Positions 12,100 to 63,840 are shown, counted from the stretch's first letter. The stretch is 64,000 nucleotides of DNA from Ignavibacteria bacterium (GCA_013177855.1 JABLYA010000001.1:2126983-2190982); one strand, 5' to 3'. Numbers and translations: made by a program. The notes: generated by a model from the sequence alone, not told the origin.

Positions 12100-12825
12100 A
12101 TGAAAAACATTTGGAAAATTTTATTATTTATATTGATGACAATTGTACTCTTTGCAGGCATTGTTCCACCTATTGTCGATCATCCAAAATCTTTTTTTGA
12201 ATTTCCATTAATTCCAGGACTTGAAGATAAAGCTAAGATTATTTTCTTCCATGTTCCGACTGCCTGGCTAACAGTCCTGGCTTATTTAGTTGCAATGTAT
12301 TATGGAATTCGATACCTCCGGAAAAAAGAAATTTATGATGATATGAAATCTGTCTCAGCAGCAGCACTGGGACTGCTTTTTTGTATTCTGGCGACGGTTA
12401 CAGGTTCTGTATGGGCTAAATTCAATTGGGGTTCATTCTGGCACTGGGACCCGAGAGAGACAAGTATTTTTATTTTGTTATTAATTTATGGTGCTTATTT
12501 CGCGCTTAGAAGCGCTCTTGAAGGAGAAGAGAAGCGGGCAAGACTTTCAGCTATATATTCGATATTGGCATTTTTAACAACACCATTTTTTATTTTTATT
12601 ATGCCAAGATTGATGATTGGTCTTCACCCAGGTGCACTTGAACTTGATCCAGCTACAGGTCAGGTAAAAGCAAGTGCAAATCCTGTGATTAAATTTCAAA
12701 TGGCTCCAAATATGAGAATTGTTTTCTTTATGTCTTTAATTGCATTTACGATTTTATTTTTCTGGCTCTGGAATTTGACACATAGAATTCTAAAAATTGA
12801 ACACAAAACCCAACAAGAAAATTAA
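12100..12825 (+). CDS. ccmC: Heme-handling protein CcmC
   Basis: Membrane protein of the heme-handling protein family that loads heme onto CcmE. The WWD-type segment is visible as WAKFNWGSFWHWDPRETS (about 105-122), preceded by the conserved FFHVPTAWL. About six hydrophobic segments fill its 241 residues. The start is set at the ATG at 12100 because GGAG lies 6-9 bases before it. An in-frame upstream start at 12040 would give an unlikely hydrophobic extension and overlap ccmB. Confidence 0.92.
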   Translation: MKNIWKILLFILMTIVLFAGIVPPIVDHPKSFFEFPLIPGLEDKAKIIFFHVPTAWLTVLAYLVAMYYGIRYLRKKEIYDDMKSVSAAALGLLFCILATVTGSVWAKFNWGSFWHWDPRETSIFILLLIYGAYFALRSALEGEEKRARLSAIYSILAFLTTPFFIFIMPRLMIGLHPGALELDPATGQVKASANPVIKFQMAPNMRIVFFMSLIAFTILFFWLWNLTHRILKIEHKTQQEN

Positions 12826-12836
12826 GGAGAAGAACA

Positions 12837-12980
12837 GTGGAAAGTTTGTATGATTTCTTAAATCAAAACTCAATTTATATCGTAATGTTGATTGTTTTAC
12901 TTGTCTGGATCGGAATTTTTCTTTTTGTTTATAAGCTTGATAAAAAAGTCAAAAAATTAGAGGAGAGAGTAAATCTATGA
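12837..12980 (+). CDS. ccmD: Small membrane protein CcmD-like
   Basis: A 47-codon frame starting at GTG, preceded by AAGGAGAAG 4-12 bases upstream, and ending in an ATGA overlap with ccmE. The product has a short polar start, one hydrophobic helix (IYIVMLIVLLVWIGIFLFVY) and a charged lysine/glutamate tail. That is the layout of CcmD, the small protein stabilising the CcmABC-CcmE complex. Position between ccmC and ccmE is the strongest support. Sequence similarity in CcmD is low in general. Confidence 0.82.
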   Translation: MESLYDFLNQNSIYIVMLIVLLVWIGIFLFVYKLDKKVKKLEERVNL

Positions 12981-13366
12981 AAGCAAGACATTATATTGGC
13001 GGTGCAATTATTCTGGTCTTTTTAGGTTTATTATTTTACAATTTCACTCGAACTAATATTGAATATGAAAGTGATTTTACAAAGGTAATGCAAAGCGGAA
13101 AAGTGTGTAAAGCAACTGGTGTATGGGTCAAGGAAAAATCTTTTCAAGAGAATATTCAGGATAGAACTTTTATCTTTTATTTGAGAGATGCAAAGAATAA
13201 CGAAATGAAGGTTGTGTATAAAGGCACAAAGCCAAATAATTTCGAAATCGCTACAAATGTTGTTGTAACAGGTAAATATGAAAATGGATATTTTCAAGCA
13301 ACCGATGTTTTAACTAAGTGTCCATCTAAATACGAAGGTCAGAATATAAATACAAGTGGTTCTTAA
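12977..13366 (+). CDS. ccmE: Heme chaperone CcmE, CxxxY variant
   Basis: Periplasmic heme chaperone anchored by an N-terminal helix (about 6-24). 129 residues with the OB-fold pattern of CcmE. The heme-binding site, normally HxxxY in E. coli-type proteins, reads KCPSKYE here, so Cys115 replaces His and Tyr119 is kept. CxxxY CcmE proteins are known from some archaea and Desulfovibrio and go with a variant System I. The ATG overlaps the ccmD stop. No ccmG, ccmH or ccmI gene is seen nearby. Confidence 0.92.
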   Translation: MKARHYIGGAIILVFLGLLFYNFTRTNIEYESDFTKVMQSGKVCKATGVWVKEKSFQENIQDRTFIFYLRDAKNNEMKVVYKGTKPNNFEIATNVVVTGKYENGYFQATDVLTKCPSKYEGQNINTSGS

Positions 13367-13381
13367 TAACAGGAGAAAGTT

Positions 13382-48351: not shown

Positions 48352-48391
48352 TTATTAAAGTCCAGGTAGTACCTGGCGTTTCAGTTCAAAA

Positions 48392-49169
48392 GTTTCAATT
48401 CCACTATGGTTCGATTACAACGGAAAGATTATTTATTGGAAAAAGCTTTTGAGTGCGTGTCTCAATTCCACTATGGTTCGATTACAACCGTTTTCGTGAT
48501 CAAACTGTAATAGAAATTTGGAAACCAGGTCTCAATTCCACTATGGTTCGATTACAACGTAAAGAGGAGAACATCGACGTCAGCGTCGACGTAGAGTCTC
48601 AATTCCACTATGGTTCGATTACAACTGGTCGTATTTTTACTTGAGGGTAAGGAAATCGATGAATCAAGTCTCAATTCCACTATGGTTCGATTACAACAAA
48701 TCAATGTCCTAATTGTTTCAATTTAAGAGAATCGCAGTCTCAATTCCACTATGGTTCGATTACAACCAAACACATTAATAACTAATATTTAAGGAGAAGA
48801 AAGTCTCAATTCCACTATGGTTCGATTACAACTCGTTAAAAATCGTTCTTATTATAAACGTTGTTTCATGTCTCAATTCCACTATGGTTCGATTACAACT
48901 GATATAGTTGACGACGATGTAAAGAAATTAATTACAAGGTCTCAATTCCACTATGGTTCGATTACAACTTCGATCCCAAGCTCGGCAAATATGTCGTAGC
49001 AGTCAGTCTCAATTCCACTATGGTTCGATTACAACTGGCGAGCTTGATATATTTTATAAAGACAATATGGTAGTCTCAATTCCACTATGGTTCGATTACA
49101 ACTATTGAAGAATTGGCGGCATTCGCGACCAAGTGGCTGGTCTCAATTCCACTATGGTTCGATTACAAC
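48392..49169 (-). CRISPR. CRISPR array, 12 repeats and 11 spacers
   Basis: 30-base repeats start at 48392, 48459, 48529, 48596, 48668, 48737, 48803, 48870, 48939, 49006, 49073 and 49140. Spacers are 36-42 bases. The minus strand is the likely sense: the repeat then starts GTTGTAATCGAACC and ends GGAATTGAGAC, giving an ATTGAGAC 5' handle close to the common ATTGAAAC. The cas genes lie upstream on that strand. The repeat at 48392 has one substitution, fitting a trailer end, and the right-hand repeats are exact. Spacer origins cannot be judged here. Confidence 0.97.
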
Positions 49170-49513
49170 AGGTTTATTTTCTGCAATTATAATTTATTTT
49201 TGCAGAAATGTCAAGCATTTTTTCTCCGAACCTCATTTTCTTTAAAAACCCTAGGGGGTTCGGGAAAGAAATTTCTTGAAAAATTTTAAAAAATCGCAAC
49301 TTTGCTCCCTTCACTCATCAACTGTCTAATTATTTGCACGGGGGTTCGGGAAAATGCTGTCAGATATTGCTTACAAGTGAATAATATATACATTTTTTTG
49401 TTCATTATTATTTAAGATTAACTGCTAAAATTTTATTGTTAATTGATTTATCTCTGATTAGAATTATAAAAATTTTAGTATTATTATTTAATGATAAATT
49501 TGGGGCGATATTT
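49170..49513 (-). promoter_or_regulatory. CRISPR leader region
   Basis: 344 AT-rich bases between the last cas-operon gene and the perfect-repeat end of the array, the expected leader position for minus-strand transcription. The motif GGGGGTTCGGGAAA occurs twice (49254-49267 and 49340-49353). CCGAACC (49226-49232) can pair with the first copy. No gene is seen. Confidence 0.7.
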
Positions 49514-51412
49514 TTATTCGTTTGCTGTGAGAACTTTGAATATAAGTTGGGAATATAAGTCGGCAGATTTTCTGAGCTGGTAAATGTTGTTTTTTCCTAT
49601 TTTGTCTTGATCTGGAAAGCTTTTAGAGTGTTCTTTTTTTGTTATTCCTAATTCCTTCAAAATTAGATCATCTCTCATATTTTGCAGTTCAAGAAGGATT
49701 GCTTTACAGAAAAGCAGTTCTTTTCTGTAGATTGGATTTCCATTTCTAATCAAATTATCAATTTGGTTTTCTGCTTTTTTAAATTCTTTACAAGAGAGAT
49801 ACGCATAGATTAATGTAATATTAATGTATTGGTCCAATCGATTTTTCTGGTTCAAGTCTTCCAGAAGTTTTATAGCCATATCAGCTTTACCTTCAAAAAT
49901 GAGTGTCTGAGCCAGTAAATTTTGAATATAGAAATCTTTTTCTTTTGGATTAGTTTTCTTTAGTCGAAGAGAATTTAGAAAGAATTTTTTTGCAATTTTA
50001 AGATTGTTAATATCATTAGTGAGAAGGAATAACTCAAAATAAATTTTTCCAAGTTGATAAGATTGTAATCGAGGACTGATAAACTTTGTTGTTTTAAGAG
50101 AGTCTTCATATTCAATTACTTTGATTACATCGGCTTCTTCTTCCGGCGGTATAAATTTTTTATTAACCCATCGAATAAATTTTTCTAAATATTCAAGAGC
50201 TTTTTTGTGATTACGAATTTTATGATCAAACCCGATAATTTCATTCTCACTTACTGATTTAATAGAGGGAAATAACAAGTTTATGATTTTAGTTAGCTTT
50301 TCAGTTTTGCAACTGAGGTTATTTTGGTAAATGGATGCAAGATTGTAGAGAGTTTTTAAATAAGTATTAAAGTAAGGTTTCTTAAAGTCATCTGGGAGAT
50401 TTTGGTTTTCATAGATGTTAATCACTCTTTCGAATGAATGCGTTCCCTCGGTAATTAATAATTTTCTGTCTTTGAATTTATCTGGTATTTTGTTTTTTGA
50501 ATATGAGAATGAAATAATTTGGGGGAGAATGATTCCCAAAATGTATCCTTTCCTGTAATGATCATTAATTCTATTAAAATCCAGTTCGATTGCGTTTTCT
50601 AAATTATCAATAGCTTTTTGAACTTCTTCAAAAAAATTACCATCACGACGTCCACCGGGGAGGATTAATTCATTGAGATTTTGATAATGGAAATAGGCTT
50701 TACTGGAATAATATGATGGATTATGAGGGTCAAGTTCAATTAAACGATCATAAATTTTTTCGCAATTAACTCTATAATATTGTTTTTGATTTAGAAAATT
50801 TTTTCTTTTTTCTGGGTCGGGAAATTGTTTTTTAAGATTGATTGAACATTCGGATAATCGGCTAAGAGCAAATCCAAGTTTATTAAGGATTTGAGGGTTT
50901 GACCATATTTCAATTTCTTCAATTTTATCAAAAGGCTCGAAAAGTTTTGCTAAGTTTTCCCATTGAGAATCTCTTTCAAATATTTTTATTTGAGTTAAAA
51001 GTTTTTCATTTTTTAACAGATTTAGGAATTTAGTTTTTTCTACAATAGTGAAGTAAGGAGTAATTTCATTTGAACTAATATTAAATTCATTTCTTAAATA
51101 AGTTCTTAGAATTTCTTTTATTAGCGAAGAGGAAAATTCGGTTGATTTGTGGAAGTCAAATTCAATATAAATGTATTTAGAGGTTATTTTTAGTTTTTGG
51201 ATATTAATCTGAATTGAGTTTGGTTCAGGATTTTCTTTTTTGGCAGAGTATTTAAAGAATATAATTCCTTCTTTTATTTGTTCCGATTTAAATTCTTTAG
51301 GAAAGAATTTTTGAAAATAGGCTGTGTACTCTTGACCGTAGGTTATTTTTCTTTTTTCGGTTATGTTTATATCGGATGTGGAAATTAAAATTATATTTTC
51401 CATCTTGTTCAA
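49514..51412 (-). CDS. TPR-rich protein of the cas adaptation operon, unknown function
   Basis: 632-residue protein not matched to a named Cas family. Residues 1-130 look like a compact alpha/beta domain (ILISTSDINITEKRKITYG onward). The rest is helical with TPR-like units such as KIYDRLIELDPHNPSYYSSKA, VQKAIDNLENAIELD, LQSYQLGKIYFELFLLT and IQNLLAQTLIFEGKADMAIKLL. No CHAT, HEPN, CARF or nuclease motif is visible. Its ATG overlaps the cas2 stop by 4 bases, so it is coupled to cas2. TPR proteins act in type III-E (Csx29), but there they carry a CHAT protease, which is absent here. Confidence 0.75.
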   Translation of the reverse strand: MNKMENIILISTSDINITEKRKITYGQEYTAYFQKFFPKEFKSEQIKEGIIFFKYSAKKENPEPNSIQINIQKLKITSKYIYIEFDFHKSTEFSSSLIKEILRTYLRNEFNISSNEITPYFTIVEKTKFLNLLKNEKLLTQIKIFERDSQWENLAKLFEPFDKIEEIEIWSNPQILNKLGFALSRLSECSINLKKQFPDPEKRKNFLNQKQYYRVNCEKIYDRLIELDPHNPSYYSSKAYFHYQNLNELILPGGRRDGNFFEEVQKAIDNLENAIELDFNRINDHYRKGYILGIILPQIISFSYSKNKIPDKFKDRKLLITEGTHSFERVINIYENQNLPDDFKKPYFNTYLKTLYNLASIYQNNLSCKTEKLTKIINLLFPSIKSVSENEIIGFDHKIRNHKKALEYLEKFIRWVNKKFIPPEEEADVIKVIEYEDSLKTTKFISPRLQSYQLGKIYFELFLLTNDINNLKIAKKFFLNSLRLKKTNPKEKDFYIQNLLAQTLIFEGKADMAIKLLEDLNQKNRLDQYINITLIYAYLSCKEFKKAENQIDNLIRNGNPIYRKELLFCKAILLELQNMRDDLILKELGITKKEHSKSFPDQDKIGKNNIYQLRKSADLYSQLIFKVLTANE

Positions 51413-51702
51413 AAGAATTTTGTTATTTCGTTCTTTTCAATTCCAACAACTTTTTTGCCAATATGTTTTTGCTCTTCAGCATGATAGAAAATGATTGAAT
51501 CTTGATCTTTTTTGATAACTCCTAAAAGTTCATTAACAAGTGCATGGAATTGTTTTGAATTCAGCTCGCCTTCGAAGGCGGAATTTTGAACCCAATTCAT
51601 ATATTTTCTAAAAATTTTTAGAACTTTGGGCAGTCTTTTTTCATCTGCTATATCATACACGGCTATGTAGAACACTTTATTTTCCGGGATTATAAATTTC
51701 AT
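51409..51702 (-). CDS. cas2: CRISPR adaptation protein Cas2
   Basis: 97-residue ferredoxin-fold protein that bridges two Cas1 dimers during spacer integration. The N-terminal VFYIAVYDIADEKRLPKVLKIF includes the conserved Asp after the first strand. AFEGELNSKQFHALV and DSIIFYHAEEQK follow the Cas2 pattern. Its start overlaps the stop of the 80-codon frame upstream (ATGA), and its end overlaps the TPR gene. Confidence 0.92.
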   Translation of the reverse strand: MKFIIPENKVFYIAVYDIADEKRLPKVLKIFRKYMNWVQNSAFEGELNSKQFHALVNELLGVIKKDQDSIIFYHAEEQKHIGKKVVGIEKNEITKFF

Positions 51703-52002: not shown

Positions 52003-53079
52003 TTAACTTGCCCGATAAGGTTCGTAGGATTTAAGTTTTCCTGTCATATAGTTAATAAGGTTAAAGCATTCCATTCTAATTAAGGAACGATAAGAGATTC
52101 TTCTATTTAATCGTTTATGAGTAATAACTGTGCTTAATCTTCTTTCAAATTCCTCTATAAATTTCTGTTTTGCATTTTCTTTTAGTAGATAAAATTCATT
52201 TTTGACTTTAAAATCTTTTTCACTAATCATTTTTAGATTAATCATTTTGAAAATTACTTTGTCGGTAATAATTGGCTTAAAGATTTCTGAAATATCATAA
52301 GCTAATGAGTGTTTTTTATCGCCGGCTTCGTGAATAAATCCAATATATGGGTTGAGCCGTGTCCTGTATATTTCCGAAATACAAACAGCATAGAGGAGTG
52401 AATTGCCAAAAGAGATTAAAGAATTAACAATTCCAATTGGTGGATTTTTGATTCTTTTTTCAAATTCAAATTTTTGTTTGAATATGTTTGTCCAGCATTG
52501 GTAATAAATATTTCTAATGTTACCTTCAATTCCTCTTAGTTCATCAATAGAACTTGCGATCCTGATTAGATCAAGCAAAGAATTTATGCTGATAATTTCA
52601 TCTTCAAGTTCAATTCCCTCGTAAAGATATGTATTAAGGTTATCTAAAATATTCCTTGCAGCTGCTTCGAGAATATTTTTTGCAATGTATAAACGTTTTT
52701 GATAATCAAAATAAAAACTTGACTGAACTAAGATTATTGAACCATCAGCTTCACTATCAGCTGGGATAAAACTTCCAACATAATTACCATAGTAATTAAA
52801 AATATGAAGTGGTATGGAGTAATAACTTAAGCATTTTAAGAACTGAGAATTGAATCTAACCTCTCCGAATGAATAAAAAGCTTCAATTGTTTCAGCTGGT
52901 AAATATTTTGGATCTCCATCTCCTTCATATTTAGGTGAAGGGAGGATAACTCTTTCTCTTTCATCTTCATAAATATCAATTTCATGAACTGCCTCAACAT
53001 CAGAAATTTTTTCAATTTTAAAAGTATTGTTCTTTCTGCTCAGGATTGAATTTGAAAATATGTAAATATTATTTTTCAT
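52003..53079 (-). CDS. cas1: CRISPR integrase Cas1
   Basis: 358-residue metal-dependent integrase that inserts spacers at the leader end. Active-site regions are visible: Glu in RGIEGNIRNIYYQCW (about 183), His in YIGFIHEAGDKKHSLAYDISEIFKP (about 250) and Asp in the same block. The N-terminal beta domain is typical (NIYIFSNSILSRKNNTFKIE). It resembles type I-B/III-associated Cas1 proteins. It overlaps the kinase gene upstream by 4 bases and so belongs to the radical SAM-Gre-kinase-cas1-cas2-TPR operon. Confidence 0.95.
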   Translation of the reverse strand: MKNNIYIFSNSILSRKNNTFKIEKISDVEAVHEIDIYEDERERVILPSPKYEGDGDPKYLPAETIEAFYSFGEVRFNSQFLKCLSYYSIPLHIFNYYGNYVGSFIPADSEADGSIILVQSSFYFDYQKRLYIAKNILEAAARNILDNLNTYLYEGIELEDEIISINSLLDLIRIASSIDELRGIEGNIRNIYYQCWTNIFKQKFEFEKRIKNPPIGIVNSLISFGNSLLYAVCISEIYRTRLNPYIGFIHEAGDKKHSLAYDISEIFKPIITDKVIFKMINLKMISEKDFKVKNEFYLLKENAKQKFIEEFERRLSTVITHKRLNRRISYRSLIRMECFNLINYMTGKLKSYEPYRAS

Positions 53080-53699
53080 AGACTGATCCTAATATTTATT
53101 AGTGCATTTTTGATTTGCTTATCGCACTTTGCTAAAATTTCTTCAATTGATTTATTTGTCGTATCGATGACGCAGATATTATTTTGTATCAAATATTCGT
53201 TTTGGACTTCATCGAGCAAATTCTGATCATCTTCGATGAATATATCTGTAGTAAGACATTTCTTTCTTCTGTTTTTAATTCGCTCCAGTCTTGTTTTACG
53301 ATCAGCAGTAAAAACAATATTTAGAAATGGTTCAGGTGGAAAAGGAGAGCTGCAAATTAAATTTTGATATTCTTCGATTAGATTTAATTTTTTGAAAAGG
53401 ACTTTGTGATAAATGCGTGTTGATAAGATGTAACGATCAACTAAAAATATTTGATGCGAGTTGTCATTAATTATGTAAGAATAAACTTCCCATACTGAAC
53501 TTAGATAATAAAAAAATCTTGATGAAGGATATTGATTGAATCTTACTTCGTAGAAATTTTTAACATCAGCTGCGTCTTCAAATGGACATTTTATGTAAAA
53601 ATAATTGTTTAGATCAGCAAGCTTTGTTGCTAAAGTAGTCTTACCTACACCATCAACACCTTCAAAAGCTATGATGATTTTATTAGAAGATTTGTTCAA
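53076..53699 (-). CDS. Thymidylate-kinase-like P-loop kinase in the cas operon
   Basis: 207-residue kinase of the thymidylate/deoxynucleoside kinase group. P-loop FEGVDGVGKTTLATKLA (about 11-27), DRY motif in FLVDRYILSTRIYH (about 85-98), and a LID-like basic segment TRLERIKNRRKKCL (about 137-150). Substrate residues are not conserved enough to name it dTMP kinase. It overlaps cas1 by 4 bases and the Gre-like gene by 17, so all three are translationally coupled. Housekeeping tmk genes are not normally in cas operons. Confidence 0.82.
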   Translation of the reverse strand: MNKSSNKIIIAFEGVDGVGKTTLATKLADLNNYFYIKCPFEDAADVKNFYEVRFNQYPSSRFFYYLSSVWEVYSYIINDNSHQIFLVDRYILSTRIYHKVLFKKLNLIEEYQNLICSSPFPPEPFLNIVFTADRKTRLERIKNRRKKCLTTDIFIEDDQNLLDEVQNEYLIQNNICVIDTTNKSIEEILAKCDKQIKNALINIRISL

Positions 53700-54144
53700 T
53701 TTTAATCTCCTTATTATTTAAGAACACAATATCACCAGCTTTTTTATTGAAAAGCTTTTGACCTAATGGTGAACTTAGACTAATCAGATTAAAACTTTCT
53801 CCATCAATATTGATTGGTTCAGAAGATAAGTAACCGATTACGAAGTATTTTTTCTCGGGTGTGATTATGATTGAACCGAGCTTAACTTCGTTGTGTAATT
53901 CTAATTTCATGAGATTTAATTGTGTTAGTTGTTGATTTAATTGAATTAATTTTTTAGCGTAAGCACCAGCTTTGTATTGAGCTTCTTCTTTGAAAGTATC
54001 GTAACGGGATTCCATCGCACCTTTATGTGAATTAGCTTCTTCTTGAGCTTCGTCCATTGCTTTTTTTGTATGGTAGACTTCTTCCTGAAGAATTCTTTTA
54101 CATTCGTCTATGAGTTTCTTTTTTATTAAGATTTTATCGTTCAT
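53683..54144 (-). CDS. GreA/GreB-like transcription factor in the cas operon
   Basis: 153 residues with an N-terminal coiled-coil stretch (about 20-75) and a C-terminal Gre-type domain ending SSPLGQKLFNKKAGDIVFLNNKEIKIEQIF. The latter matches the SPxGxALxGxxxGD pattern of GreA/GreB. Gre factors enter the RNA polymerase channel and rescue stalled complexes. The N-terminal part differs from canonical GreA, so it may be a Gfh-like competitor. It lies 1-2 bases after the radical SAM gene. With a sigma-like gene nearby it makes a second transcription-related protein in this cas locus. Confidence 0.75.
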   Translation of the reverse strand: MNDKILIKKKLIDECKRILQEEVYHTKKAMDEAQEEANSHKGAMESRYDTFKEEAQYKAGAYAKKLIQLNQQLTQLNLMKLELHNEVKLGSIIITPEKKYFVIGYLSSEPINIDGESFNLISLSSPLGQKLFNKKAGDIVFLNNKEIKIEQIF

Positions 54145-54145
54145 A

Positions 54146-55057
54146 TTAAATTTTTCCTCCTAATTTTAATTTCTCGACTAAATCTTCTTTTGAATTGTTT
54201 GAGAAGAAAAAGACATTATCTTCTCTTACTCCACAAGGTTTAATATACCATGGTGTAATTCTTATTGAATTCCAGCAGCTTTCAAGACATTTATTTCTAA
54301 CCGGACACACATTACAAGCTTCTGGTCTATTGGTGAGACTTTCGGGTAATTTAATGGAGATTTTAAAGCTTTCCTTTAGAGAAAAAACAAGTCTGTTATT
54401 ATCAATACTTTTATCTATGATTTGATCGGATAATTTTGATGCGATTAAATCTGCAAAACTATTTACAACATCTTCAGGGTCTTCTGCTTCAAGACGATGA
54501 AAGAATTTAAGATTAATTTTTTTTGAGAATGCGAAGGATAAAATCTTATCGATGTTCTCAATGATCTCATCATCAATGATAATGTTTAATTCCATCTGGT
54601 TTCGATTGACTTCGTCGAGCTCGCAAATCATGTTAAACCATTTTGTATCAAGATAGGCGATATGATGTAAAGAAAGGTTTATAAATGTATTCCCCATATT
54701 TAAGAACTCATCTCTAACATCTTTCAAGTATGAACCATTAGTCGTGAGTGCAATTGGCAAGTCAGGGAAATTCTTGCGGAGCTGCTCAACTTCAGACAAA
54801 AATCTTTCCTTACCTATCATTAAAGGTTCAGCATGTCCTGAAATATGTATTTTTTGGAAATGATTGTTTGTTTCTCCAATAGAATTATATATTAGTCTAA
54901 TTGCATCAGTGAAAGACAGCATGAAATTTTCGTCGAAATCTGTTGATACATCAAAGTAGTCTTTATGACAATTGAAGCACTTGAGATTGCACTTAGAATT
55001 TTTACCGTTAAGAGCTGAAAAGTTTAATCGAAAATTTTTTTTGATTGTGTCTTGCAT
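54146..55057 (-). CDS. Radical SAM protein in the cas operon
   Basis: 303 residues with the radical SAM cluster motif CNLKCFNCHKDYF (CX3CX2C) near residue 23, followed by HISGHAEPLM and LTTNGSYL, typical barrel segments. The C-terminal Cys-rich region (CNVCPVRNKCLESCWN, then IKPC) could hold an auxiliary iron-sulfur cluster as in SPASM/twitch enzymes. The ATG at 55057 is preferred because AGGGAAG lies about 8-14 bases upstream. A start at 55102 would add 15 residues. It opens the operon, after a 248-base intergenic gap. The substrate is unknown. Confidence 0.85.
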   Translation of the reverse strand: MQDTIKKNFRLNFSALNGKNSKCNLKCFNCHKDYFDVSTDFDENFMLSFTDAIRLIYNSIGETNNHFQKIHISGHAEPLMIGKERFLSEVEQLRKNFPDLPIALTTNGSYLKDVRDEFLNMGNTFINLSLHHIAYLDTKWFNMICELDEVNRNQMELNIIIDDEIIENIDKILSFAFSKKINLKFFHRLEAEDPEDVVNSFADLIASKLSDQIIDKSIDNNRLVFSLKESFKISIKLPESLTNRPEACNVCPVRNKCLESCWNSIRITPWYIKPCGVREDNVFFFSNNSKEDLVEKLKLGGKI

Positions 55058-55305
55058 TTTGAATACTTCCCTTTTTTCTTGCCATTTTAATATGAGTGGC
55101 ATTGCGTTGATTTTTCCAATTTAAGGTGGATTAAAGATATTGGAAGGAAAGGTTGTGGTTAACTTTGTTCAATAAGAGTTAGGAAGGGAAATTGGCGGTA
55201 ATGTAATTTTAGATTTTATTGGTTTAGTAAATTTGTAGATAGTTTCTTAAAAAGCATAATGATGGATTTATTGAAACTCAAACCGGTAAATAATGTAATT
55301 GAAAT

Positions 55306-56439
55306 TTACTTTTTTATTTCAATTGAAGAACCAAGTGAGTAATTAGAATATTTTTCGTATACAACTATATATTTACCAGTATTTATATAATGAACGGCTA
55401 CAAGATTGGATTTATTTATAAAATATTTCATCATTGCGGGGACAAACCAGGTAGGCTTAAAATTATCAAGCAGAAAGTAACGATTACTCATTTTATCATA
55501 TTTATTTAGAATATTTTTTAATGGTGTATCAATGTATTTTAATATTTCAGGTTGTAAATCGGATGAATAATTAAAATTAAGGCTGATTTTTACTGCTTTC
55601 TCACCGCTTTCAAGTTCAACCACTTCGTCTTTGAAAGAGATTTTACCAAAAAAATCTTTGGTGTTCAGCAACTCTTTGAAATTTGGGAAAAATACTTTGA
55701 TGCCTTCTTCTAAATCAGAGACATACTCAATATTAATTTGAGGATACTTCTTTTCGAGCTGTAATTTTTTGCAATCTGCCGGCAAAACAATCTTTTTAAT
55801 TTCAGGATATTCTTCAATTGCTGCTTCAATTTTTTCTTCAGCTCCATCAATAAAAGTGATCTTTAAATTTTCGTCTACATTTCCTGAACAAGCAATTGAT
55901 ATGTCAATTTTTTCATTGATTAGTGCAGAGAAGATTGCAACGCAAAGAGGATATTCGAGTGAGTTGCCGTAAAGGTTTAAATCTGATAAAGGTTCATTCA
56001 AAGGATTTAGAAATTTAAGTTCAAATTTTTTAATTAAATCGGGATAGAAATACGCTTCATCGAGATTTTTCTGGATTAATTTAGCAACATATCCGAAACA
56101 GTTTAGAAAATTATCTTTAAACGCAGTGGCTGAACCAAAAAATTTTAGATTATCAGAATTGGAAGTGTCGTCATAACCAACTTTGAGAATTAAGCAAATA
56201 CTATCGTGCCCATCTTCAGAGACAAAGAGGGAATAAGTTTTACCAACTTCACTTGTCAATGGTGTGAATTCCATATCCTGCCGATTCACTAATTGATTGA
56301 TTTTTTTCATCAAATCGGGATGGATTCTCTTTGCATAATCGGATGCGATAAGATCATTTAATTTATTCTTAAGAAGATAAATATGATCTGGCGTTAATAA
56401 TCTCTTTATATCACGATTCAGAAAGAAAATATCGTTCAT
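55306..56439 (-). CDS. Lon-protease-domain-like protein of the sigma/anti-sigma module
   Basis: 377 residues. Residues about 95-252 resemble the Lon (S16) proteolytic domain: YGNSLEYPLCVAIFSALI, with Ser160 at the nucleophile place, then SIACSGNVDENLKITFIDG, EEKIEAAIEEYPEIKKIVLP and a final EEGIKVFF helix. The catalytic Lys of the GxxK pattern appears as Glu201, with the nearest Lys two residues later (203). It may be inactive, or may use a shifted Lys. There is no AAA ATPase and no SAVED or CARF sensor. The C-terminal 120 residues are unrecognised. It abuts the anti-sigma-like gene with a 1-base overlap. Confidence 0.62.
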   Translation of the reverse strand: MNDIFFLNRDIKRLLTPDHIYLLKNKLNDLIASDYAKRIHPDLMKKINQLVNRQDMEFTPLTSEVGKTYSLFVSEDGHDSICLILKVGYDDTSNSDNLKFFGSATAFKDNFLNCFGYVAKLIQKNLDEAYFYPDLIKKFELKFLNPLNEPLSDLNLYGNSLEYPLCVAIFSALINEKIDISIACSGNVDENLKITFIDGAEEKIEAAIEEYPEIKKIVLPADCKKLQLEKKYPQINIEYVSDLEEGIKVFFPNFKELLNTKDFFGKISFKDEVVELESGEKAVKISLNFNYSSDLQPEILKYIDTPLKNILNKYDKMSNRYFLLDNFKPTWFVPAMMKYFINKSNLVAVHYINTGKYIVVYEKYSNYSLGSSIEIKK

Positions 56440-57896
56440 CAGTGAGCTATAATCTTAAATTTTATGTTTACAACTTTGTAATTATAAATAAAACCAATTT
56501 CGCATCCTGTAGTAAAGTCTATAATTAGGTCCATCGGGAATTTGAAAGGTATTCTTGCTAAATTATTAATAACAGGAATTTCTTCTATCATTACTGCAGC
56601 TTTACTTTCCAGATTAATGATATAGAAATCTTTAATTCCTTTAATTTTAACGTCATCAAGGAAAACTAATTCAAGATAAATATCCTCACCGTAAGCGTTT
56701 ATATAAATTTGAAATTCAAGACCGTCATATAATTTGAGAGGTTCAACGGGCATTTGTTTTCTTAGCTCAAAATATTTTGCTGCAAAACGAACCTTTTCTT
56801 TATCAACCTTTAAATCATCGTAGCTTAGAACCTTCACATCATAATTTCTAAAGATTTTTTTGCGATAATCTTGATAATTAATTTCTCTTAAATCTTTGAA
56901 GTTTAATTCTTCGAATTCTTTAATGTCTACATCTCTAGTTGTCTTAACAGAAGGTTTTGTTAATTGCCTTCCAAAAATCCTATTTAGAGTACCATCCCGA
57001 TCATGAAATATTATGAAATTATCTTCGTCTATTTCGACTGTCTTTTCTGTTAACCTTCGTTGTTCTCTTAAAGCTGCCTTTTCAAAATACTTAACCGATA
57101 GAGAATAAAAGACGGTTTTCGTAAACTCTATCTCATGAGATTCGGGCAATAGTTCTACAATACCTTCATCTCTTAAAACTATATCTTGAAGCTTATTCAA
57201 AATATCACGCACTTTATCATTCCAGATTTCAAATTCTTCATTCCAGTAAATTTTAGATAACTCATCTTCCAAACCGCCGCGCTTAATGGTATTGTTGTCA
57301 ACAAGCGAGTAATCGTGGTGATCAGCTCTGATTACAGCTTCAAAGTTATGCGAAGACATTTCTCCTATAAAATATTCAAGCCAATCAGTAAACAGATTTG
57401 TTGCTAGATGAATGTGGGCGACCACTCCAAATTCTTTGAATGAAATTACATCTTCACTTATTAATAAGTCATACGGCTGTGAAAAGTGAGTTAAACGACT
57501 GAGAGGAATAACTCTAACATCTTTCCCGGTTACAGATCCTTCTGGTTCCTTGACAATAACAAAGAATAGTTCTTCAAGCAATTTTTTTTCATAAGATTTA
57601 ACAGGCAGCTTATCCAAATTGAGCTTATAGATATTGCCTCTTGAGAACTTAATCTTCTTTGAATTCACATTTTTAATCAAATTTAACCAGGTATTCAGCT
57701 GTCTTTCACCAAATTCGAATTGATCAATTTTCCGCAATTTATCTTCTTTAGATTTCACATATTCGTACAGTTGTTTTAATTCTTCATTAATTTCAATTTC
57801 TTTTTTAAGTTTTTTGGATTTTTCTTCATCTAATTTCCCGAGCACAAAATCCACAACATCCTCGTATCTAAACTTAAGTTTATTATTCTCGCTCAT
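56439..57896 (-). CDS. Anti-sigma-like protein with large beta-rich region
   Basis: 485 residues. The first 50 (KFRYEDVVDFVLGKLDEEKS, KKLKKEIEINEELKQLYEYV) follow the helical pattern of anti-sigma N-terminal domains of the zf-HC2 type, but without the zinc-binding His/Cys residues. Residues about 80-485 are not recognised and look alpha/beta with a beta-rich end. It lies 22 bases after the sigma-like gene, the usual order for sigma/anti-sigma pairs. In CalpT-type systems a protease cleaves the anti-sigma. A similar role here is inference. Confidence 0.55.
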   Translation of the reverse strand: MSENNKLKFRYEDVVDFVLGKLDEEKSKKLKKEIEINEELKQLYEYVKSKEDKLRKIDQFEFGERQLNTWLNLIKNVNSKKIKFSRGNIYKLNLDKLPVKSYEKKLLEELFFVIVKEPEGSVTGKDVRVIPLSRLTHFSQPYDLLISEDVISFKEFGVVAHIHLATNLFTDWLEYFIGEMSSHNFEAVIRADHHDYSLVDNNTIKRGGLEDELSKIYWNEEFEIWNDKVRDILNKLQDIVLRDEGIVELLPESHEIEFTKTVFYSLSVKYFEKAALREQRRLTEKTVEIDEDNFIIFHDRDGTLNRIFGRQLTKPSVKTTRDVDIKEFEELNFKDLREINYQDYRKKIFRNYDVKVLSYDDLKVDKEKVRFAAKYFELRKQMPVEPLKLYDGLEFQIYINAYGEDIYLELVFLDDVKIKGIKDFYIINLESKAAVMIEEIPVINNLARIPFKFPMDLIIDFTTGCEIGFIYNYKVVNIKFKIIAH

Positions 57897-57918
57897 AGCT
57901 TAGTCTCCTAACTGATAA

Positions 57919-58944
57919 TTATTCAGAATCATTTTCAGAAATTTCATCAAAAACATCTTTTAATGTCCAGAGAATTTTATTTAAAAGTTGATTTAAGAAA
58001 TCGAAGTGATTTATAAGATTTTGATCAAGCAGTGAAATAGTTTTCAAAAATCCCTCTGGAGTATATTGATAATTATTATTGATCTGGATTTGAATTGTCG
58101 TTGGTGAAGTGTAGCTGAGAAGAGATGCAATATCTTGAAATGTCTTTTCTTCAAAGTATCTATAATAAATTGATTTTAATATCACTCTGCCAGACTTAGA
58201 ATTAGTTAATTCAAACAATTTTTCTCTATACTTTTCGCAGATTGAATTAATAATATTGACCTGTTCAGGTGTATTTATCATATCATTTTCTTCTTCTAGT
58301 ATATGATCTTCATCATCGTTTTCATCTTGATCAGGATTTTCTTTATCAATGTAAATAACATTTAAACATAATTTGATTTTCAATAGATCAATTAACACTG
58401 TAAATTCAATAGAACCAACAATGTTCAAAAAATCGAGAATAACTTCTTTAATGAGCTGTTTCTTCTTTTCCGACCATTTTTCTTCTTTGTTAATTTCTGT
58501 AAAATCATAAGCATAAAATCTGTTTAATACATCATCTCTGTTCCATCGGTTTGAATTAATATCAAATCCATCAACATAATAAAACTTTCCATTATTATAT
58601 GAGTGGATAATGCCGTCATTTTCCAATTCTCTGAGAATATTTTTAAGGTTTGTTATGAGTTTTTGAGTTTCTTTATCGTTGATATCTCTATGTTTAATTG
58701 AGTTTAAGACGATCGTTTTTAAGAATGCTTCTGGATTATCAATCGGATTATCATTTTTCAAATGGATATTAATACTAAGAATTACGTTTGAAATCAGATC
58801 AGATAGATCTTCGAGATCGGGTAAAGAAATGTTAGTTAAAATAATTTGCTTTATTTTGTTTGTTAGTTGATTTAATTGAGATTGAGTGAGAGAATTATTT
58901 TTGATTGCTTCAAATATCTCGTTTAAGCTCAAGTGTGTCCTCAA
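57919..58944 (-). CDS. Sigma-70-family-like protein in the type III CRISPR locus
   Basis: 341 residues. Residues about 41-87 (DLEDLSDLISNVILSI, then NPEAFLKTIVLNSIKHRDI) match the region 2 core-binding pattern of ECF sigma factors. Residues about 252-292 (RVILKSIYYRYFEEKTFQDI, then ASLLSYTSPTTIQIQI) match a region 4 helix-turn-helix. Between them are about 160 unusual residues with an acidic loop (about 203-222), longer than in normal ECF factors. Its start overlaps the 155-residue gene by 4 bases. It could direct RNA polymerase to defence promoters. Homology is judged by eye. Confidence 0.62.
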   Translation of the reverse strand: MRTHLSLNEIFEAIKNNSLTQSQLNQLTNKIKQIILTNISLPDLEDLSDLISNVILSINIHLKNDNPIDNPEAFLKTIVLNSIKHRDINDKETQKLITNLKNILRELENDGIIHSYNNGKFYYVDGFDINSNRWNRDDVLNRFYAYDFTEINKEEKWSEKKKQLIKEVILDFLNIVGSIEFTVLIDLLKIKLCLNVIYIDKENPDQDENDDEDHILEEENDMINTPEQVNIINSICEKYREKLFELTNSKSGRVILKSIYYRYFEEKTFQDIASLLSYTSPTTIQIQINNNYQYTPEGFLKTISLLDQNLINHFDFLNQLLNKILWTLKDVFDEISENDSE

Positions 58945-59408
58945 AAATTTATTTTATTAAGTTTTTCTAAAAGCTCTTTTTGTTTTTCGTAAGAGAGTTT
59001 ACCTTTTCTTTTGCTTAAAGTTTTGAACTTATACCATCCGCGATATCTCAACAAAATTACAGAATCCTGAACAACATCTTCCTTATATCTTTCTAAGAAT
59101 ACGACCTCCCTTAAATTTCTATTATAAATTTTTGAAGACATTGGAACCCATTCAGTTTCAAAATTAGTCTCCTTTGATGGAGAGTTTATAACAACTCCAG
59201 GTCTAATTTTTATTGTAGAGTAATTATCTTTTTCATGGAAACCTCTAATCTTTGAATCATCAATTGTGTGAATTGAGCCAAAGACCTGAGACTTCATTAA
59301 TTCAACTTCATCCCGAGAAAAAATATTTTCATAACTATAAAACTCTTTTCTTTTACGTCTGATTTTTTCGAAGACAGGATCGTCTTCGCTAAATCGTTTG
59401 CTGCTCAT
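58941..59408 (-). CDS. Unknown protein, first gene of the sigma/anti-sigma/Lon module
   Basis: 155 residues, not recognised. It is basic at both ends (RRKRKEFYSYENIF and KTLSKRKGKLSYEKQKELLEKL) with a beta-rich centre (STIKIRPGVVINSPS, then VVFLERYKEDVVQDSVILLRYRGWYKF). No signal peptide, nucleotide site or catalytic motif is visible. Its stop overlaps the ATG of the sigma-like gene by 4 bases, so it is part of that operon. The region upstream (59409-59582) should hold its promoter, divergent from the lipoprotein gene. Confidence 0.6.
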   Translation of the reverse strand: MSSKRFSEDDPVFEKIRRKRKEFYSYENIFSRDEVELMKSQVFGSIHTIDDSKIRGFHEKDNYSTIKIRPGVVINSPSKETNFETEWVPMSSKIYNRNLREVVFLERYKEDVVQDSVILLRYRGWYKFKTLSKRKGKLSYEKQKELLEKLNKINF

Positions 59409-59582: not shown

Positions 59583-60092
59583 ATGAAAAAATTATTATAC
59601 CTTCCAATAATTATTCTTACCTTCCTGATTACTTGTAATTCAAATCCCTCTCAAGAAAAGGAGCCTAAATATCTTTGGCAATATCTAACCACCACTCTCT
59701 GGTACGATGTTTATTATGATTATAAGTCGATTGGGATATATGATAATGAAATTGTTCTTTTTTTGAAATATGTTCCACTGGAGTCAGCAAAAGATAAAGT
59801 TATCTCAATGAGAAAAAGAGCTAATGTTGATGACCCAGACTTGGTGAAGAAATATGAAAATTTTGCTTATTCGATTCAGATACACTTCTGGGATTGTGAA
59901 AATAAGCTAAATGCAATCTGGGCATTCGAAGATTATGATAAGGATGATAATTTAATAACTTATCTTTATACTGAATTAGATTCACTTGTATACTTTAATG
60001 TTGAAGGTGATTTGTATGGTGAAACTATGCTCAAGGCAATTTGTAAATTAAAAGCTGAAGAAGAAAACAGAAGAAAAAGCAAGGACAAATAA
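59583..60092 (+). CDS. Small lipoprotein encoded against the cas genes
   Basis: 169 residues with a lipoprotein signal (LYLPIIILTFLITCNSN, lipobox LITC) and a soluble domain with WYDVYYDYKSIGIYDNEIVLF and a Lys/Glu-rich end. The soluble part resembles small surface or periplasmic domains with no known function. It is the only + strand gene among the cas genes and is flanked by the Can2-like gene (convergent) and the 155-residue gene (divergent). Whether it belongs to the CRISPR system or is a bystander is open. Confidence 0.65.
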   Translation: MKKLLYLPIIILTFLITCNSNPSQEKEPKYLWQYLTTTLWYDVYYDYKSIGIYDNEIVLFLKYVPLESAKDKVISMRKRANVDDPDLVKKYENFAYSIQIHFWDCENKLNAIWAFEDYDKDDNLITYLYTELDSLVYFNVEGDLYGETMLKAICKLKAEEENRRKSKDK

Positions 60093-60166: not shown

Positions 60167-61195
60167 TTAAGCTGGTTTAATTTCTAATACATTTATAACT
60201 TTAATTGATAATTCCTGAGCACGTTTCAGGAATGCTGCTGATTGCTTGTTGGCGGTTACAAAAATTCCTTTACCAAAGGTTCCGCTTGTAATATTTCGTA
60301 GAGTTTCGATTTGATAAAGGTCAAATTGATTATCTTTCTTTCCGCTCTTGCAGGAGTAAAGTATCAATCTGTAATCTTTAAGTTCTATTACATCAATTTC
60401 GTTTTCAACACCTTTTTCGTTAATTAATTTTACACCAAGTTTTAATTGCGAATTTTTGTTTTTGCTTAATAAATAATATGTGTAATATTCAAGCCAGTCG
60501 CCGCTCTTAAAATCTGAGTGAGAGATGAAAAATATTTCTTTGTTACTGGTACCGTATTCAATGAAAAATCCTTTTAAGTCTCTTGTAATTTTAATCCTCT
60601 TATCATGATTAAATTCAGTAAACTTTGGAATTTCCATGTGAATTTTCTGTCTAACCTTTTTATACATATTTACAAACGAAGCCATAAGATTATTTTTCTC
60701 AATGAAATTGAAAAAGTTAAAATATTCATCAAAGTTTATATTTTTCTCATCAATAATTTTATAACCGTAAGAACTTAAATAGTCTTCAATTGTGAGCTCA
60801 GCATTTAAATCTTCAATGTGATAAGATGGATGGATAGTAATAAGCTTTTTATGTTCAGTATCGCAATAAACTATTCTTCTATTGAATTCAGCGAATGCAT
60901 CTCGTGCAGCTAAAGCCATTAATTTTGTACCGCCGGTGAGATTTAGTATTACATCGTTTCCATATTTTTTTAATTCTTCTTTTACAACTTCTCTAAATGC
61001 TTTATAATCATAAGCGTCAAGATTATCTCTTCTGTAGACTTTTATATTTTTTTGAACAAACAGTCTTTCCAGATTATTTGCACATTGTTTTTCTTCTAAA
61101 GTTGAAAGCAATAAGACATTCTTAGGTTTAAGCATAAATACAGGCAGGACATTTGCCATTGCCTGCCTTGAAACAAGACAAAACATTGTTGTCAT
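60167..61195 (-). CDS. CARF-DUF1887 nuclease, Can2/Card1 type
   Basis: 342-residue cyclic-oligoadenylate-activated nuclease. The N-terminal CARF domain shows CLVSRQAMANVLPVFMLKP at the start and NLTGGTKLMALAA at 85-97, part of the ligand pocket. The C-terminal DUF1887 PD-(D/E)xK domain has GDWLEYYTYYLLSK, ENEIDVIELKDYRLILYSCKSG (acidic residues and the x-Lys) and FGKGIFVTA. Can2/Card1 proteins degrade RNA and/or nick DNA when bound to cA4. It follows the 121-residue gene by one base, in the cmr operon. Confidence 0.9.
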   Translation of the reverse strand: MTTMFCLVSRQAMANVLPVFMLKPKNVLLLSTLEEKQCANNLERLFVQKNIKVYRRDNLDAYDYKAFREVVKEELKKYGNDVILNLTGGTKLMALAARDAFAEFNRRIVYCDTEHKKLITIHPSYHIEDLNAELTIEDYLSSYGYKIIDEKNINFDEYFNFFNFIEKNNLMASFVNMYKKVRQKIHMEIPKFTEFNHDKRIKITRDLKGFFIEYGTSNKEIFFISHSDFKSGDWLEYYTYYLLSKNKNSQLKLGVKLINEKGVENEIDVIELKDYRLILYSCKSGKKDNQFDLYQIETLRNITSGTFGKGIFVTANKQSAAFLKRAQELSIKVINVLEIKPA

Positions 61196-61196
61196 A

Positions 61197-61562
61197 TTAA
61201 TATTCCCTGAACCGAACGAAATTAAAAGTGACTATCTTTTTACCGTCTTTTTCTTCTACGATTCTATCTGTAGTTGAGACAATTACTTTGATTTTTTTCT
61301 TCTTCAAGAGATTTACCAGATGATAGACGAAAGTAAATTCACCCATAAGATGGACTGCATTGTTTTTATCTTTGGATTGTTTCAGTGCATCAAGAATAAT
61401 TTTTAAATATTTCTCTGCTTTTCGTTTCACTTGATTTGTTGATGCTTTTGGAGAAATATAGGGGAAGGGGATATCGTAAATTGATTTATATTTTTTCAAA
61501 GCGGTTTCAATCTGTTTTTTAGTCCATTTAATTTGGGGGTGATTAGAAAGGTTTATGAGCAT
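61197..61562 (-). CDS. Small conserved type III-associated protein, Rossmann-like
   Basis: 121 residues with the pattern LINLSNHPQIKWTKKQ at the N-terminus, IPFPYISPKA in the middle and VHLMGEFTFVYHLVNLLKK then STTDRIVEEK and a terminal FVRFREY. This looks like a compact alternating alpha/beta fold. It lies between cmr6 and the CARF nuclease. Small Rossmann proteins in this place include ring nucleases (for example the Csx15/16/20 group), but the specific family cannot be named with certainty from the sequence alone. Confidence 0.65.
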   Translation of the reverse strand: MLINLSNHPQIKWTKKQIETALKKYKSIYDIPFPYISPKASTNQVKRKAEKYLKIILDALKQSKDKNNAVHLMGEFTFVYHLVNLLKKKKIKVIVSTTDRIVEEKDGKKIVTFNFVRFREY

Positions 61563-61585: not shown

Positions 61586-62410
61586 TTATTTAAAATATCC
61601 ATATCCAACAGCGGTTTTTGCTCCTACGCCTTTTTGAGTCAATGCTTCTAAAAGAAATTTTTTACCTAAGTCAAAATAATGTCCTTGAATATTGTCAATT
61701 TTACCTAAATTATTTTCCGTTTCTTTTATCCCGATGATAAATTGAAAACTTGTATTTTCAACTGTAACAAAGAATATTGGATTGGGGTTATAATAATCAG
61801 CTGGAGGTTTAGTATTTGTTTTATCGGAATAATATGGTTGATAATGAGGATTCATAACATCAACCTTTAATTTGGGTGTTTCAATAGGATAAGCATCGAA
61901 AAAAACAAGTGCACCTTGATATTCTTTATTCAGGATGCTTTCCTTGGGACAACCAAATAAATGGCAAAAAGTTTCGCTTTGATAAGCTTTTTCTTCATCT
62001 TTATTGAAATATTCTAATATAACCCAGCTACGCACTACTCCTTTAATCGATTGGCCAGGAATATATGGGAAACCATAGACCGGATGTAGATTTATTGAGG
62101 TTTCGTAGACTGATTCTGAACCGAGGCCAAGAGTTAATCGCCAATCAATTATAAGTTTTTTTACATAATTTATAGTTGGAAATAATTTTTTCGCTGCCTC
62201 AGAAATTTCTTTACAAAGATTGTTAAAATTTATTGAAGGAAAATTAAAATTTTCGACATCATTAAATATTATTTTCCCTTTATCTGTTTTAAAGAAGAGG
62301 AATTTATCCCCATCAAATCTTGCGAATTTGTGAAATTTTAACGCAAAATTTGATACTTGATTTCGATTAATTTTTTCCAAAGTCTCTTTTGGAACTAAAG
62401 AATCTGACAT
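61586..62410 (-). CDS. cmr6: Type III-B effector RAMP protein Cmr6
   Basis: 274-residue Cas7-like subunit at the end of the Cmr backbone. The RAMP motifs are visible: LTLGLGSESVYETSINLHPV, YGFPYIPGQSIKGVVRSW, GALVFFDAYPI and the Gly-rich C-terminal GVGAKTAVGYGYF. DVMNPHYQPYYSD and PNPIFFVTVEN also match Cmr6. It lies 1 base after cmr5 and 23 bases before the small conserved gene. Confidence 0.94.
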   Translation of the reverse strand: MSDSLVPKETLEKINRNQVSNFALKFHKFARFDGDKFLFFKTDKGKIIFNDVENFNFPSINFNNLCKEISEAAKKLFPTINYVKKLIIDWRLTLGLGSESVYETSINLHPVYGFPYIPGQSIKGVVRSWVILEYFNKDEEKAYQSETFCHLFGCPKESILNKEYQGALVFFDAYPIETPKLKVDVMNPHYQPYYSDKTNTKPPADYYNPNPIFFVTVENTSFQFIIGIKETENNLGKIDNIQGHYFDLGKKFLLEALTQKGVGAKTAVGYGYFK

Positions 62411-62411
62411 A

Positions 62412-62801
62412 CTAATCTCCTTCTATTAATCCATCGGCAAAACGTTTTAACCAAGAAAGGAATGATAAAACTTCTGAAGTAATTTTTCTATATTCTACAG
62501 AAGAGATTTGAGAAATCGCAAACACCAATTCATCAAATGATCTTACTTTATCTGAATTAATCATATTTCGATAATTTAACCAATTATAAATGTCTCTACC
62601 AATTGAATTCCAGAATTTCCCTTCTTCTTTGCTCCTTTTTGAATACATAAATGCAAATGCAGCACCTAGTCCATTGGTCTTTATAAGCATTGGTAACTTC
62701 TTAACATAACTTTTATATTCTTTTCCCAATACAGAAGCATTTCTAGCACAATTAAAAGCGAATTCTATTTTTATTTGATCTGTTGTTCTTAGAAATGACA
62801 T
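62412..62801 (-). CDS. cmr5: Type III-B effector small subunit Cmr5
   Basis: 129-residue helical protein. The pattern AFNCARNASVLGKEYKSYVKKLPMLI followed by NGLGAAFAFMYSK is characteristic of Cmr5, the small subunit that lines the target RNA in Cmr complexes. Position between cmr4 and cmr6 settles the call. It lacks enzyme motifs, as expected. Confidence 0.92.
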   Translation of the reverse strand: MSFLRTTDQIKIEFAFNCARNASVLGKEYKSYVKKLPMLIKTNGLGAAFAFMYSKRSKEEGKFWNSIGRDIYNWLNYRNMINSDKVRSFDELVFAISQISSVEYRKITSEVLSFLSWLKRFADGLIEGD

Positions 62802-62802
62802 C

Positions 62803-63840
62803 TCATTTTCCTCCTTTATCGTTATTTTGGTTTATTTCATTAATTTTAATTATACCCTTACCAATTGTAGCGTTACCCCCTAGTTGCATTACTTCTGGAA
62901 GGTTTTTCACAAAAAATTCCATTACAAGTTCTTCTTCTTTTTTCCCATTTTGGTTAAAAATACCTTTTTTCTTTTCCTCTTTTTGAAAAATGGGGGTACT
63001 GAAAACTAAAAAATACATTATTGTTTCTGGTGGAAGATATTCTTCGTTAAACAATGCACCCTGCGCTACCGTACCTGTTAGATTATCAATCTTAGTTCTA
63101 GTAATTATTTCAGTAAATTGATTTACAAAATCTCTAAAATCATCATCATTTAAAACTACTACACGTTCTTTTAATTCATTCATTTCTCTAAATTTTGATA
63201 ATATAGGATCAATATTTAAATTTTGTTGTTCGTTAAATCTGTATTCTTCTAAAACAACTGATGTATTGTTTATGGATATTTTGTTATTAGCGTAAGTAAT
63301 ACATTGCCCGATATCGACACTTGGAATATTTAATCTGAAATCTTTGTAACAAAGCTTCAGATCCTCAACGTATCTATTTAATACATATGGACAGGTTATC
63401 CAAGCGAAGATACCTTTTGCTGATCTTACTGGGAAAAATAAAATGCGAGCATCAGAAAAAGCAAGAGCTCCTGAAAATTCGGAATCCTCTTCAAATTCCT
63501 TTTTTATTAGTTCGTCAAGATTATCTTCATCATATCCAAATAGTAATTGAATTGAATAATCGAAACTCAATTTTAAACGTTTTTTATCATTGATATTCTC
63601 AAATCCAATTTTAGAAGAATCGTTCTTTGATATTATTTCTAAGAACTCAACTTTTTGTTGTTCTAGTTTATTTTCAAAAGCTTCTCTTATAGCTCCTTTA
63701 AGCGAAGAGCTCTCAACTTTTGGGAATGATGTATGTTTTTCCCTTTGAATGGGTAAATCCACCATTCCTAAATCATTACCACTTCCACAGTGGAGTGATG
63801 AAATTGTACGAAAATAAAATGGTTTTGCAATTCTAAACAT
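62803..63840 (-). CDS. cmr4: Type III-B effector RAMP protein Cmr4
   Basis: 345-residue Cas7-like backbone protein that cleaves target RNA at 6-nt steps. The N-terminus shows HCGSGNDLGMVDLPIQREKHT, with the Asp expected to be catalytic, and FPKVESSSLKGAIREAF. The Cmr4 hallmark LFFPVRSAKGIFAWITCPYVL is near residue 155, and GGNATIGKG is at the C-terminus. It is somewhat longer than typical Cmr4 (about 290-300), with an acidic insert around 110-125. It overlaps the upstream partial gene by 8 bases. Confidence 0.94.
   Translation of the reverse strand: MFRIAKPFYFRTISSLHCGSGNDLGMVDLPIQREKHTSFPKVESSSLKGAIREAFENKLEQQKVEFLEIISKNDSSKIGFENINDKKRLKLSFDYSIQLLFGYDEDNLDELIKKEFEEDSEFSGALAFSDARILFFPVRSAKGIFAWITCPYVLNRYVEDLKLCYKDFRLNIPSVDIGQCITYANNKISINNTSVVLEEYRFNEQQNLNIDPILSKFREMNELKERVVVLNDDDFRDFVNQFTEIITRTKIDNLTGTVAQGALFNEEYLPPETIMYFLVFSTPIFQKEEKKKGIFNQNGKKEEELVMEFFVKNLPEVMQLGGNATIGKGIIKINEINQNNDKGGK

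Follow-up and report, generated by a model that had tools for sequence, protein, structure and literature searches.

Four genes on the minus strand of a 64,000-nucleotide stretch of DNA from an Ignavibacteria bacterium (GCA_013177855.1 JABLYA010000001.1:2126983-2190982; the whole stretch is called the window here) probably encode a Calp-like cascade in which a cyclic oligoadenylate (cOA) gates proteolysis and thereby transcription, with a new type of sensor and an extra MazF-like subunit. The module occupies positions 55306-59408 and consists, in operon order, of gene A [MazF/PemK-like, 155 residues, 58941..59408], a gene for a sigma-like protein [341 residues, TTG start, 57919..58944], gene T [485 residues, 56439..57896; a putative, CalpT-like anti-sigma factor and protease substrate] and a gene for a Lon-Csx3 protein [377 residues, 55306..56439]. 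Gene A overlaps the sigma gene by 4 bases, a gap of 22 bases separates the sigma gene from T, and T and the Lon-Csx3 gene overlap by a single base. The four genes and three junctions had been listed in an initial annotation of the window, and open reading frame calling reproduces the coordinates exactly; the flanking genes agree with its placement of the module between the cmr/CARF genes and cas1-cas2, the CRISPR array adjoining the cas side. The same annotation held that no messenger sensor is fused to the Lon domain. This was wrong or at best incomplete, as residues 266-377 are predicted to have a Csx3/Crn3-type fold, and because this fold stands in for SAVED the architecture resembles that of CalpL more than had been supposed.

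The C-terminal ~112 residues of the Lon-Csx3 protein (55309..55644, minus strand) are assigned to the Csx3/Crn3-type fold, replacing SAVED, on the strength of a structure model and of profile comparisons. The model has a predicted local distance difference test (pLDDT) score of ~76-90 across most of the domain. Its best structural match is the Csx3/Crn3-cA4 complex [6yud, VIA Z 11.6, root mean square deviation 2.2, 94 residues, 18% identity; cA4 is cyclic tetra-adenylate], followed by Cat1 [9mud, VIA Z 10.9, Foldseek E 2.4e-5], and both stand well above the next unrelated folds. SAVED structures reach a Z of only 5.3-5.8 against the C-terminal 112 residues, and the SAVED-Lon profiles cover the Lon part of the protein only. 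The family profile of the domain aligns with five Csx3 proteins from relatives at an hhalign probability of 97.2 (column-shuffled controls <0.3) and still at 95.9 after the two most Csx3-like members (L026 and L010) are left out. With the whole-protein family profile, AfCsx3 (6e-4) is the main family recovered from the PDB sequences besides Lon/RadA-type domains. Orthologues match Pfam Cas_csx3 and PADLOC Csx3, one of them beating the curated Pfam cut-off in the genome search (22.5 versus 21 bits). For the window protein alone, Csx3 is detected neither by hidden Markov model nor by hhalign (probability 0.2); it emerges only when the family profile and the structure model are used. Residues 146-258 of Cat1 (9mud), named CARF in the Cat1 paper without mention of Csx3, resemble the domain that matches Csx3 (residues 266-377 of the Lon protein).

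In Crn3, ring-nuclease activity depends on H57, H60, D69, R71 and H80 (AfCsx3 numbering; PMC7371418). These residues are not conserved in the module family, the joint alignment placing an equivalent of H80 in L026 only. Csx3 sandwiches cA4, and addition of cA4 to the H60A mutant of AfCsx3 gave a colloidal solution, read by the authors as fibre formation (PMC7371418); Cat1 builds cA4-glued filaments without ring-nuclease activity (PMC12162218). Because the catalytic residues are lost, and in view of the behaviour of H60A and of the Cat1 filaments, the domain is expected, by analogy, to be a non-cleaving cOA receptor. It might instead serve mainly as an off-switch, a ring nuclease attached to a protease that is activated otherwise; Csx3/Crn3 itself is a ring nuclease (PMC7371418) and the SAVED domain of CalpL also degrades cA4 (PMC11417357), but the loss of the five residues makes this role highly improbable.

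The core of the Lon (S16) protease domain spans residues ~150-262 (55654..55992, minus strand). Taken by itself, the window protein matches Lon_C weakly and below the cut-off (E 0.0019), while the family profile matches Lon protease structures at E 9e-18 and the domain matches E. coli Lon structurally with Z 8.0. Ser160 (codon 55960-55962) and Lys203 (codon 55831-55833) form a dyad at the canonical spacing of 43 residues, invariant in 9/9 full-length sequences compared; G158, S171 and G186 of the Lon core are invariant as well. The family profile and the invariant Ser/Lys dyad bear out the Lon-like domain that had been proposed for the 377-residue protein. The Lon part of the orthologues gives its top scores against the CRISPR-Lon/SAVED-Lon profiles.

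The 341-residue protein had been called sigma-70-like, and folds resembling regions 2 and 4, a profile-profile match and an orthologue's Pfam match all uphold this. In the model, residues ~1-95 are region 2-like [1-93 matched to region 2 of E. coli sigmaE, VIA Z 8.3] and residues ~221-306 region 4-like [VIA Z 6.8 to SigL region 4]; a VIA Z of ~8 is middling for helical proteins, and plain Foldseek with the sigma model returns nothing below E 0.5. The hhalign probability against region 4 of the genome's own extracytoplasmic function (ECF) sigma factors is 74.9 (shuffles <0.2), and the L112 orthologue lies above the Sigma70_r4 cut-off (27.2 versus 24.1 bits). The window protein alone matches Sigma70_r2 weakly (E 0.21). 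Taken at moderate strength, the operon contains an ECF-type sigma factor.

Protein T, the anti-sigma-like protein of the initial annotation, is a CalpT-like candidate in that it contains a MazF-like domain, and by analogy with CalpT it is the putative anti-sigma factor and protease substrate. CalpT is reportedly described as a MazF homologue in the original Calp paper. T comprises a helical N-terminal segment, the MazF/PemK-like domain (residues ~80-195) and a beta-rich tail. It aligns with the PemK/MazF set at an hhalign probability of 95.4 (shuffled controls <0.2), and one orthologue matches Pfam PemK at E 0.001. The T profile matched no MazF structure by hmmsearch, the MazF link consisting of the hhalign result and that orthologue's Pfam match. 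The equivalent of the MazF catalytic Arg is kept inconsistently in T.

The fourth protein, A, is indeed an additional member of the set, as the annotation had proposed, but it is more than an uncharacterized one, being MazF/PemK-like. The window protein gives a PemK E of 0.006, hhalign against the PemK set a probability of 95.7 (shuffles <0.4), and the A profile matches MazF structures at 4e-7. Arg69 and Ser91 are kept in 11/11 sequences (as R and S/T columns) and align with the catalytic Arg and Thr of MazF. A may belong to a complex of T and sigma, or it may be a second output that cuts RNA. In a wider reading, a Csx3-type, cOA-triggered Lon would cut T and so release both sigma and an active MazF-like RNase A, giving a dual transcription-plus-translation phage response distinct from Calp; we regard it as rather doubtful. 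Were A itself the main output, paired with and inhibited by T and freed by Lon cleavage to cut RNA and stop translation, sigma would serve only to autoregulate or boost the operon. The conserved Arg/Thr-aligned residues and the MazF matches fit such a toxin, as do the apparent lack of a MazE-like antitoxin gene in the operon, the 4-base overlap of A with sigma in the window and the position of A, upstream of sigma wherever both are seen. This arrangement, with A as a putative toxin, is nevertheless unlikely: the A and T profiles are only weakly related (hhalign 15.8), and the MazF-like protein of the Calp system is said to be an anti-sigma factor rather than a nuclease.

In the Calp-like cascade that we prefer, the Cmr/Cas10 complex encoded next door would sense foreign RNA and, as its palm motif suggests, produce cOA. 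The messenger, most likely cA4, would bind the C-terminal Csx3-type domain between stacked dimers, in the manner of Csx3-cA4 and Cat1-cA4, and would be held rather than cut, since the domain lacks the catalytic residues of Crn3; with the ligand retained, Lon-Csx3 may oligomerise or build filaments. Oligomerisation would then switch on the Ser160/Lys203 site, which would cleave T as CalpL cleaves CalpT, and T, once cut or subsequently degraded, would free the sigma-like protein to redirect RNA polymerase. The nearby Csx20 would turn the signal off. The model for these steps is CalpL/T/S, where cA4 makes CalpL oligomerise and cleave CalpT, its anti-sigma factor (PMC11417357, PMC12751052).

A search of genomes of the same class and phylum (the named relatives in the contig collection are Ignavibacteria/Ignavibacteriales metagenome-assembled genomes) was made for the same gene set, as the initial annotation had proposed, and yielded 12 further loci with the same gene types (L009, L010, L011, L025, L026-L029, L039-L041 and L112), several of them linked to type III systems. 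All four gene types lie within the read stretch in 10 loci. The order A-sigma-T-Lon is maintained, with sigma-T-Lon present in every complete locus, the exception being L010, where a truncated Lon gene lies upstream of A. The L025 contig is without Lon, and another contig of the same genome (G002) terminates in the C-terminal part of a Lon gene; the L112 locus is cut off inside the sigma gene. Identity to the window proteins is only ~11-55% pairwise, which argues that the set is old. Since the gene types recur in 12 other genomes with sigma-T-Lon order kept and the Lon dyad invariant, the arrangement goes beyond chance. Scans with protein A gave no loci in viral contigs and two in genome contigs, both already found. 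At L012 (G004:C44, ~1294-2471), in a genome without Cas10, the module has decayed: gene A carries stop codons and Lon is reduced to remnants.

The association with CRISPR is strong yet not obligatory. At seven of the 13 loci the immediate neighbours of the module are genes of type III systems or of CRISPR adaptation. The window locus is III-B; L026 has a 26-repeat array, cmr genes and cas2 as neighbours, L028 an array, Csx20 and a Card1-like nuclease domain, L029 an array, a protein of the reverse transcriptase-Cas1 type, cas2 and Csx20, and L040 an array, cas1 and cas2. In L027, cmr1 and cas10 adjoin Lon, and in L039 III-A cas10-csm genes lie immediately 3' of Lon. Csx20 occurs at no fewer than four loci (at least the window, L028, L029 and L041, in the last at E 2e-23). 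Cas10 is found in 6/10 genomes with a protein-A match versus 62/391 sampled (hypergeometric p = 0.0016; p = 0.0007 once the decayed copy is removed), an enrichment that is indicative because the sampled genomes are related. The module genomes that have Cas10 carry GGDD or GGED as its palm motif, GGED at the window locus. Wide occurrence of the four genes without CRISPR loci, which would speak against the initial annotation, is seen in part, since L009, L011 and L025 lie away from CRISPR, but is offset by the seven adjacent loci.

Several observations weigh against the cascade. At least three loci have no CRISPR nearby: L009 and L011 in the fetched flanks, and L025 also on the other Lon-bearing contig of its genome. 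L009:7561-11376 and L011:9180-13001 are complete modules between a gene for a MerR-like regulator and priA; Cas10 was undetected in both of these near-complete genomes, so that the module can exist without type III and cOA from a type III system cannot be the signal there. Cas10 was likewise undetected in the L025/G002 genome. In the window protein, N, F and T occupy the positions of the cA4-contacting G45, R46 and I49, and the equivalents of R71 and H80 are lost; the contacting residues are partly retained in the family, with G45/R46/I49 equivalents in L027 and L028. The Lon catalytic region, modelled from a two-row alignment, has pLDDT <50 over residues 54-198, and because of this low confidence the case for the catalytic part is one of sequence. 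Finally, the helical N-terminal segment of T is absent in some orthologues. The loci beside priA, together with L025/G002, would suit a general stress sigma cassette, often captured by CRISPR loci, whose Csx3-like domain senses some other cyclic nucleotide or stress ligand unconnected with type III. That reading is quite unlikely given the seven loci adjoining CRISPR-cas genes, the enrichment of Cas10, the recurrence of Csx20 and a sensor fold that is a CRISPR messenger domain.

The module shares with CalpL-CalpT-CalpS an S16 Lon with a messenger sensor, a MazF-like candidate substrate and a sigma-like factor (CalpS is an ECF sigma factor), all in one operon beside type III, and at the window locus a type III Cas10 with a cyclase motif (GGED), which is not universal among modules. 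It differs in that the sensor is Csx3-type where that of CalpL is SAVED and in the extra MazF-like protein A; moreover, T is longer, some members having a helical segment at its N-terminus, and a long stretch separates regions 2 and 4 of the sigma factor. Lacking the SAVED sensor, the module falls outside Calp proper though it would work like Calp. An intact SAVED-Lon locus, sought in Cas10-positive relatives for comparison of T and sigma with CalpT and CalpS, was not identified there, and the module copy L112 emerged. The Csx3/Crn3 ring nuclease has the same fold, but the module domain has lost the catalytic residues and sits C-terminal to Lon. The sensor fold is likewise common to Cat1, whose effector is an NADase TIR domain rather than a protease. 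Craspase (Csx29-Csx30-RpoE, type III-E) also applies CRISPR-triggered proteolysis to a sigma factor; there, however, Csx29 is a TPR-CHAT protease on a single-protein effector (gRAMP), whereas the module has an S16 protease and separate cmr genes. MazF/PemK toxins share the fold of A and of one T domain, and A has the aligned catalytic Arg/Thr, but A and T belong to an operon with sigma and protease genes in which no antitoxin gene is apparent. In the papers examined, Csx3 fusions are mainly to AAA/kinase-like domains, plus one conflict-system architecture (PMC12409355, PMC7371418, PMC7159879). PADLOC has SAVED-Lon and CARF-Lon models and, in the searches made, no Csx3-Lon model; no Csx3-Lon fusion was found in the literature, where coverage of subscription papers was limited and an earlier description is possible. 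From this comparison, protease-sigma cascades triggered by CRISPR seem able to exchange their sensor, from SAVED to a degenerate Csx3, so that the fold of a messenger-destroying enzyme would here serve as messenger receptor, the second case, after Cat1, of a Csx3-type fold in an effector. The module offers a defined protein set for studying the reprogramming of transcription by type III CRISPR and for asking if the same switch also controls a MazF-like RNase.

On the effector side of the module, the minus strand of the window encodes a Card1/Can2-type CARF-PD-DEXK nuclease, a co-effector neighbour (60167..61195), Csx20, a predicted ring nuclease (61197..61562, E 2.4e-48), cmr6 (61586-62410), a cmr5-like gene (62412-62801) and cmr4 (62803-63840); genes for Cas10/Cmr2 with the GGED palm motif and for Cmr3-like and Cmr1-like proteins lie just outside the window. 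On the cas side, radical-SAM, GreA-C-like and thymidylate-kinase-like genes are followed by cas1 (52003-53079, minus strand), cas2 (51409-51702, minus strand) and an array of 12 repeats with a spacing of 66-72 (48391-49188). The array repeats of the window, L028 and L029 have the common core CCACTATGGTTCGATT despite coming from genomes of different families. The radical-SAM, GreA-C/coiled-coil and thymidylate-kinase-like genes occur together repeatedly within CRISPR loci (window 53076-55102 and L029:13158-15189); the radical-SAM gene has a weak viperin-type PADLOC match (2e-5), and the set is possibly a pVip-like nucleotide-analogue pathway.

No common promoter motif was apparent by eye 5' of gene A. 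A small putative lipoprotein gene (window 59583-60092), separated by 174 bases from the divergently oriented gene A, may be regulated by sigma. A recurrent two-gene pair adjoins the module at L010:3259-5359, L025:2993-5159, L041:6180-8591 and possibly L029:11294-13064; one gene encodes a multi-helix membrane protein that contains a coiled coil, the other a lipoprotein-type protein that is vWA-like, and the pair is a candidate for a target of sigma or for a membrane effector. In L026, the protein encoded directly after the module (12612-14042) combines a CARF domain (Cas_NE0113, Pfam 2e-22) with a RelA/SpoT domain (Pfam 4.5e-17) and is possibly a (p)ppGpp enzyme under the control of cOA.

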